Positions 43,457 to 43,954 of a stretch of 55,836 bases of DNA are shown one piece after another. Source of the DNA: an uncultured Pelagibacteraceae bacterium (lineage in GTDB: Bacteria > Pseudomonadota > Alphaproteobacteria > Pelagibacterales > Pelagibacteraceae). Under the pieces are notes generated by a model, which was given only the letters and a program-made list of their open reading frames with translations, was not told the origin of the DNA and did no database searches. The translations under genes were made by a program, and so were the position numbers. Where the stretch lies: assembly GCA_902595725.1 (NCBI GenBank), contig CACJRJ010000006.1:1-55836 (forward strand). The letters run 5' to 3'. Within the stretch, counting starts at the first letter, position 1; each line of letters starts with the position of its first letter.

Positions 43457-43473
43457 TTTATAATGATTCTAAA
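43457..43473 (-). promoter_or_regulatory. Irr box (iron control element) over the katG promoter
   Basis: TTTATAA-TGA-TTCTAAA on the plus strand is a 7-3-7 palindrome matching the Irr consensus TTTAGAA-N3-TTCTAAA, as I recall it, at 13 of 14 positions. It begins 9 bp before the katG ATG and lies between the -35 and the start, where binding would block RNA polymerase. It also matches a PerR box at 14 of 15 positions counting the central N, so PerR-type recognition cannot be excluded from the site alone. Confidence 0.6.
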
Positions 43474-43477
43474 GTAG

Positions 43478-43483
43478 TGTCAA
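43478..43483 (-). promoter_or_regulatory. -35 element of katG
   Basis: A perfect TTGACA on the minus strand, with candidate -10 hexamers TATAAA (15-bp spacing) or TAAATT (17-bp spacing) inside the Irr box. Predicted initiation is only a few bases before the katG ATG. Confidence 0.5.
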
Positions 43484-43537
43484 TATAGCAGAATTGACCC
43501 ACTCCAATTTTAATTTAATATTTTGTAATGATTGAGA

Positions 43538-43954
43538 TTAATTATTATTTTCAATTTTAACTAGCACTTCTATAGACTTAATCTTCTTACCTGGTAAACT
43601 TTTTTTAACATTTATATTGCCAACATCATCCTCTTTCAAATCTATAAGTTCATTAGTGTTTATATCAAGAAAGTGATGATGATTAGAAGTGTTGGTATCA
43701 AAATAACTCTTATCTGCATTTATTGATATCTCTTTCAAATAACCTTTTTTTTTAAAGGAGTGAACTGTATTATATATAGTAGCTAGAGAAATATCTTTAT
43801 TAGTTACTTTTTTTAAATTTTTAGAAAGATCCGAAATTGTAAAATGAAAAGTTTTTTTTCTATCAAACAATAATTTGCAAATTTCTAATCTCTGTTTTGT
43901 AGGTCTTAAGCCTGATGACCTTAATTTTTCAATAAAATCGCTATTATTATTCAT
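43538..43954 (-). CDS. irr: Iron-responsive Fur-family regulator, Irr type
   Basis: A 138-residue Fur-superfamily repressor. The winged-helix recognition segment is ISLATIYNTVHSFKKKGYL (55-73). YFDTNTSNHHHF (84-95) is the Irr signature, with the haem/metal triad H92-H93-H94. The paired CxxC zinc motifs of ordinary Fur/PerR are absent; the single Cys is C26. Irr is stable in iron-poor cells and degraded or inactivated by haem. The divergent neighbour is fabA, an arrangement common in Rhizobiales, and katG is the next gene downstream on the same strand across 89 bp. Confidence 0.88.
   Translation of the reverse strand: MNNNSDFIEKLRSSGLRPTKQRLEICKLLFDRKKTFHFTISDLSKNLKKVTNKDISLATIYNTVHSFKKKGYLKEISINADKSYFDTNTSNHHHFLDINTNELIDLKEDDVGNINVKKSLPGKKIKSIEVLVKIENNN

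Follow-up and report, generated by a model that had tools for sequence, protein, structure and literature searches.

The promoter of the catalase-peroxidase gene katG in a SAR11 genome carries an Irr-type palindrome, which the comparison of relatives supports as a conserved operator. The gene itself stands behind irr, in a slot that other SAR11 genomes fill with other peroxide-removing enzymes. On balance, the sequence data lean towards Irr being a local, probably PerR-like repressor of this interchangeable peroxidase slot, with the katG palindrome as its operator. The window, i.e., the whole stretch of 55,836 nucleotides that was analysed, comes from contig CACJRJ010000006.1 of assembly GCA_902595725.1, a Pelagibacterales (SAR11) draft genome of 1.08 Mb that is 84% complete. 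The named genomes nearest to it all belong to the Pelagibacteraceae.

The katG Promoter and Its Gene Neighborhood

A preliminary description of this DNA had reported a 17-bp palindrome agreeing with the Irr consensus at 13 of 14 positions, overlapping the likely -10 region of katG and adjoining a perfect -35, with an Irr-type gene as the next gene upstream on the same strand. All of these features were recovered (Table 1). The scoring refers to TTTAGAANNNTTCTAAA, the Irr box consensus. There are two -10 candidates, TATAAA (43457-43462, spacer 15) and TAAATT (43455-43460, spacer 17), and the box overlaps both. Its single mismatch, C to A, yields TATAAA, so that one set of bases serves as both -10 element and half-site, and this mismatch recurs in most katG promoters of the relatives. 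The gap between irr and katG is 89 bp, and the katG product is recognised by the catalase/peroxidase HPI model (TIGR00198).

Table 1. Coordinates of the features at the irr-katG locus of the window.
Feature	Position	Strand	Basis or remark
Irr box (ICE-type palindrome) TTTAGAATCATTATAAA	43457..43473	-	13/14 to TTTAGAANNNTTCTAAA
-35 element TTGACA, perfect	43478..43483	-	sequence; 4 bp upstream of the Irr box
-10 region, sharing bases with the right half of the Irr box	43455..43462	-	sequence
irr, Fur-family regulator, 138 aa	43538..43954	-	NCBIfam, synteny, metal ligands
katG, catalase-peroxidase, 745 aa	41211..43448	-	TIGR00198, 1144.8 bits against a cut-off of 770.25
fabA-fabB-fabI, conserved divergent neighbors fixing the position of irr	44034..46537	+	
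Weak, probably degenerate box ATAAGGTTTGTTATAAA upstream of irr, 9/14	43967..43983	-	sequence

The region in front of irr (43955-44033) holds a further box, which scores 12-13/14 in most SAR11 relatives and 10 in the nearest relative (L156); this autoregulatory box has probably degenerated in the lineage of the window. The transcription start site of katG likely lies at the ATG or within a few bases of it, and no Shine-Dalgarno sequence is visible (43446-43462, minus strand), so the katG mRNA of the window may be leaderless. Many relatives have an AGGAG leader at katG instead.

Conservation of the Box

The number of box matches in the genome carries no weight in this argument. Six sites in the 1.08-Mb assembly match the Irr box with one mismatch or none, and at up to two mismatches a backward-read control pattern is commoner than the box itself (118 vs 70). 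Since the AT-rich background gives as many matches, the genome-wide count was discarded as evidence. The remaining five one-mismatch sites all lie within open reading frames, and for the general box no one-mismatch promoter site besides that of katG was seen in this genome. The exact sequence TTTAGAAYNATTMTAAA occurs in the genome only as the box at katG, and a score of 13 within the 89-bp gap is reached by 0.04% of dinucleotide shuffles.

What places the box beyond chance is its conservation across the katG loci of relatives. The preliminary description had proposed comparing the katG promoter in related genomes, where loss of the palindrome would speak against the proposal; the box is kept, at 11/14 or better, in all 30 katG loci compared (the window and 29 relatives), among which KatG identity falls to 64%. 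The gene is present in 32 of the 101 genomes. The composite pattern TTGAC-N4-14-TTTAGAATNATTATAAA, searched across the same 101 genomes, gives 18 matches, each of them immediately upstream of katG, and its control gives 0. In two genomes katG lies remote from irr and is still boxed (G100, 13/14; G074, 12/14). Several relatives carry another box at katG, some 30-33 bp upstream and abutting the -35, which is not recognisable in the window.

A tighter form of the box pattern has further matches in the own genome. One of them, at C1:63152 in the divergent peroxiredoxin/metallo-beta-lactamase promoter, was rejected, as relatives have no box at this position. Another, TTTAGAATTATTATAAT (L256; G000:C19:10434-10450), is a candidate site that precedes the gene of a TAXI/TRAP-type solute-binding protein by about 56 bp. 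Where compared, the sites in front of genes for TRAP-type binding proteins, a radical-SAM protein and an XRE regulator showed no convincing recurrence. Two SAR11 genomes (L244 and L261, near 1500) share an Irr-like box some 145 bp ahead of orthologous genes for an XRE-family regulator; the flanks of these boxes do not align, and the boxes are possibly due to chance.

An Interchangeable Peroxidase Slot behind irr

In relatives lacking katG, irr is followed by genes for rubrerythrin (rbr), an Fe-S (HdrD-like) protein and DUF3501. Downstream of this rbr operon lie SH3-domain, ThiF-type and dut genes; in the window the same genes stand next to katG, which can thus be said to occupy the exact place of the rbr operon. 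The promoters of both are alike in layout, as seen in ATTATAATAGTTCTAAACTGTTGACA for katG (L019) and ATTATAATTATTCTAAACTGTTGAC for rbr (L084). Of the irr loci of named SAR11 genomes, 32 in number, 19 have katG in the slot, 12 have rbr, and one (L180, with a 12/14 box) has a peroxiredoxin of the redoxin family. The slot promoter is boxed at 12/14 or better in all 32, with a mean best score of 12.6 vs 9.4 in shuffles. The perfect box TTTAGAATNATTCTAAA is found in 14 genomes, one copy each and always at the irr/fabA locus: twelve copies lie just upstream of rbr, one precedes a small ORF that follows irr (G100) and one lies in an emptied slot (G062).

The two main cargoes were also never found together. 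Although katG occurs in 32 and rbr in 47 of the 101 genomes, none has both, vs 14.9 genomes expected; within the family of the window the figures are 0 vs 7.1 (P = 8e-6, not corrected for phylogeny). Exactly one of the two genes is present in 21 of the 22 genomes that are at least 90% complete. The rbr gene adjoins irr in 29 of the 30 rbr loci read, and the remaining locus stops at a contig edge.

Identity of the Regulator

The best NCBIfam models for the window regulator are IrrA (127.1 bits, cut-off 150) and Irr (115 bits, cut-off 170), both below cut-off. The gene is divergent from fabA-fabB in 32 of 32 SAR11 loci and in 32 of 48 irr loci from other alphaproteobacteria, among them Rhizobium and Ensifer. 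These matches, the irr-fabA-fabB synteny and the box together support the neighbor of katG as the positional orthologue of Irr. All 32 SAR11 Irr proteins have the HHH motif, and the N-terminal Cys-Pro haem motif, which many Irr lack, was not found in them.

The top solved structure for the window regulator is PerR of B. subtilis. The equivalents of the PerR ligands His37, Asp85, His91, His93 and Asp104 are present in 80 of 80 alphaproteobacterial Irr, the classical haem-responsive ones included, and as they are common to all, the ligand set is no proof that the protein senses peroxide. In the SAR11 Fur paralogue, Glu takes both Asp ligand positions. The window Irr contains one Cys and no CXXC, which accords with Irr and sets it apart from PerR, whose structural zinc site has two CXXC motifs.

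Besides Irr, the genome encodes two Fur-family proteins, one Fur/Mur-like (contig C20) and one Zur, which adjoins znu genes. It could be argued that the box is read by the Fur/Mur-like protein, or by a PerR that the assembly lacks: 15 bp in the middle of the box, TTAGAATCATTATAA, match the Per box consensus TTATAATNATTATAA at 13/14, equalling the match to the Irr box, nearly every genome has the Fur paralogue, and a genome assembled to 84% could hide another regulator. This is improbable, since the same promoter in relatives carries perfect Irr boxes, such as TTTAGAATNATTCTAAA (sister family) and TTTAGAACTGTTCTAAA (a GC-rich alphaproteobacterium), which marks the window box as an Irr rather than a Per box. 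The box furthermore remains linked to irr, and none of 13 genomes with a completeness of 90% or more has a Fur-family gene beyond Fur, Irr and Zur, and thus a fourth gene for a separate PerR. Irr itself is very probably the protein that reads the katG box.

Proposed Mechanism and Signal

The neighboring Irr is proposed to bind the palindrome on the katG promoter. Bound there, it would cover the -10 and lie against the -35, blocking RNA polymerase, and because of this placement Irr likely acts as a repressor of katG. The opposite sign, in which Irr activates the slot gene in low iron, has precedents, as Irr is an activator of some rhizobial targets. It would also agree with boxes just upstream of the -35 in some loci and with the rise of rbr mRNA under iron limitation described below; the position over the -10 in the window and in most katG promoters is a repressing one and makes activation very unlikely.

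Regarding the signal, the iron- or haem-loaded Irr would be the repressing form. Peroxide would lead to oxidation of Irr, catalysed by iron or haem iron, at the PerR-like His/Asp site; the oxidised protein would be inactive and the peroxidase would be induced. Loss of iron itself would likewise relieve the repression. A peroxide signal is more likely than haem supply alone, because three different peroxide-removing enzymes share one switch. The PerR-like switch is further favored by the metal-free cargo, by the PerR ligands, by the rise of rbr in low iron and by the oxidation of a rhizobial Irr. In the single published SAR11 data set, from Ca. Pelagibacter ubique, rbr (SAR11_0399) mRNA is up 1.57-fold under iron limitation (P = 0.025, PMC2864753), which could be an indirect effect in this strain (HTCC1062; the irr-rbr linkage is seen in other SAR11). 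Irr of B. japonicum is oxidised at the equivalent of PerR His37 via iron bound by the His cluster (PMC4700492), and Asp at the 104 position marks the peroxide-sensing members of the family, being reported to control the access of H2O2 (PMC4866751). Taken together, a PerR-like signal at the slot has about an even chance of being correct.

The main rival is the classical circuit, in which Irr represses katG in haem or iron scarcity until haem lifts the repression, production of an iron-costly enzyme being thereby confined to times of iron supply. Rhizobial Irr is controlled by haem and reduces the expression of iron proteins in low iron. The box and the gene identity fit such a circuit, as do the HHH motif, the iron content of rubrerythrin and the binding of R. 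sphaeroides Irr to boxes at mbfA and ccpA (PMC3413700). Under a haem-supply signal, the cargo would be expected to use iron and its expression to drop in low iron. The preliminary description had reasoned from the haem requirement of KatG, and this logic is not supported, as the same box and slot serve rubrerythrin, a non-haem di-iron protein, and a peroxiredoxin without metal. Its second element, repression in scarcity, is at odds with the rbr mRNA, which goes up and not down under iron limitation (PMC2864753). The missing Cys-Pro motif also counts against the circuit, though many Irr lack it. Of the circuit first proposed, the box at katG and its overlap with the -10 and -35, which favors repression, thus stand; the haem logic and its sign are not supported. 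Haem control of the slot is disfavored, and only disfavored, because the iron effect is small and concerns rbr rather than katG; the classical circuit is accordingly regarded as rather unlikely.

Returning to the PerR-like reading, its fullest form would make SAR11 Irr a functional, peroxide-responsive PerR with few targets. It would be fixed beside a slot in which lineages exchange one peroxidase for another (haem KatG, di-iron rubrerythrin, thiol peroxiredoxin) under an unchanged operator, and it could move with katG as a cassette. This form is put forward tentatively, as a possibility that falls somewhat short of probable.

Relation to Known Systems

Irr control of peroxide and iron-defence genes such as mbfA and ccpA is already known. 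The Irr regulon of Rhizobiales and Rhodobacterales, with ICE boxes at mbfA, ccpA, bfr and hemB, shares with SAR11 a regulator orthologous by synteny and the same box. Some of its targets serve peroxide or iron defence, e.g., the rubrerythrin-like mbfA and the cytochrome c peroxidase ccpA, and irr mutants are peroxide-resistant, with katE of R. sphaeroides affected only indirectly and without Irr binding (PMC3413700). SAR11 differs in having katG as a putative direct target beside irr and in the exchangeable slot; neither a direct Irr box at katG nor an exchangeable peroxidase slot was found in the open-access papers searched.

The PerR regulon of Firmicutes is similar in that a Fur-family repressor stands over peroxidase genes, with five identical metal ligands and a similar palindrome. 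Its targets include katA and ahpC, and perR and rubrerythrin genes are neighbors in anaerobes. It differs in the Cys4 structural zinc site, which is absent from the window protein, a member of the alphaproteobacterial Irr clade. Another parallel is the irr-rubrerythrin-HdrFeS-DUF3501 cluster of alphaproteobacteria, with the same promoter position and box behind irr, whereas the window genome has katG as the cargo instead.

SAR11 bacteria are among the most abundant cells in the ocean. If the proposal is true, a single exchangeable slot behind one regulator would offer a simple model of their peroxide defence. The three cargoes, with different cofactors and one operator, would then amount to a natural experiment that could tell which signal Irr responds to: haem, iron or peroxide.

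Probable Age and Possible Movement of the Module

The module is envisaged as irr plus a slot under the Irr box, whose ancestral cargo would be rubrerythrin-HdrFeS-DUF3501, replaced by katG and once by a peroxiredoxin. Among 48 non-SAR11 irr loci, rbr is the next gene downstream of irr in 13 (Reyranella, Rhodospirillaceae, Parvibaculum and others), and katG was found within 4 kb of irr in none. A significant box lies in the gap at 9 of 12 tested irr-rbr loci outside SAR11, including GC-rich Reyranella; one such GC-rich alphaproteobacterial box is TTTAGAACTGTTCTAAA, at 53% GC. With GC-rich alphaproteobacteria sharing it, irr-box-rbr is the probable ancestral arrangement, and katG a replacement in part of SAR11.

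A genome of the sister family (G062) has irr and katG together within an sfu iron-transporter locus (L238:3851-6559). Its irr groups with the family of the window and not with its own, the placement inside the donor family being unsupported (0.169), and no other irr was found in this genome. Among the sfu iron-uptake genes there, no box of at least 12/14 was found except in the promoter of the inserted irr and at a site inside katG. At the old fabA locus a perfect box remains, with neither irr nor rbr. It looks, from this arrangement, like a transfer of irr-katG as a cassette into this genome.

Two small ORFs lie directly behind perfect Irr boxes, one of 67 aa in G062 (L239:1940-2140, minus strand) and one of 61 aa in G100 (L241:2256-2438, plus strand). 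Neither has a Pfam match, and the two look related to each other (FLDNAVGVGEHI and FLDKPQGVAEHI).
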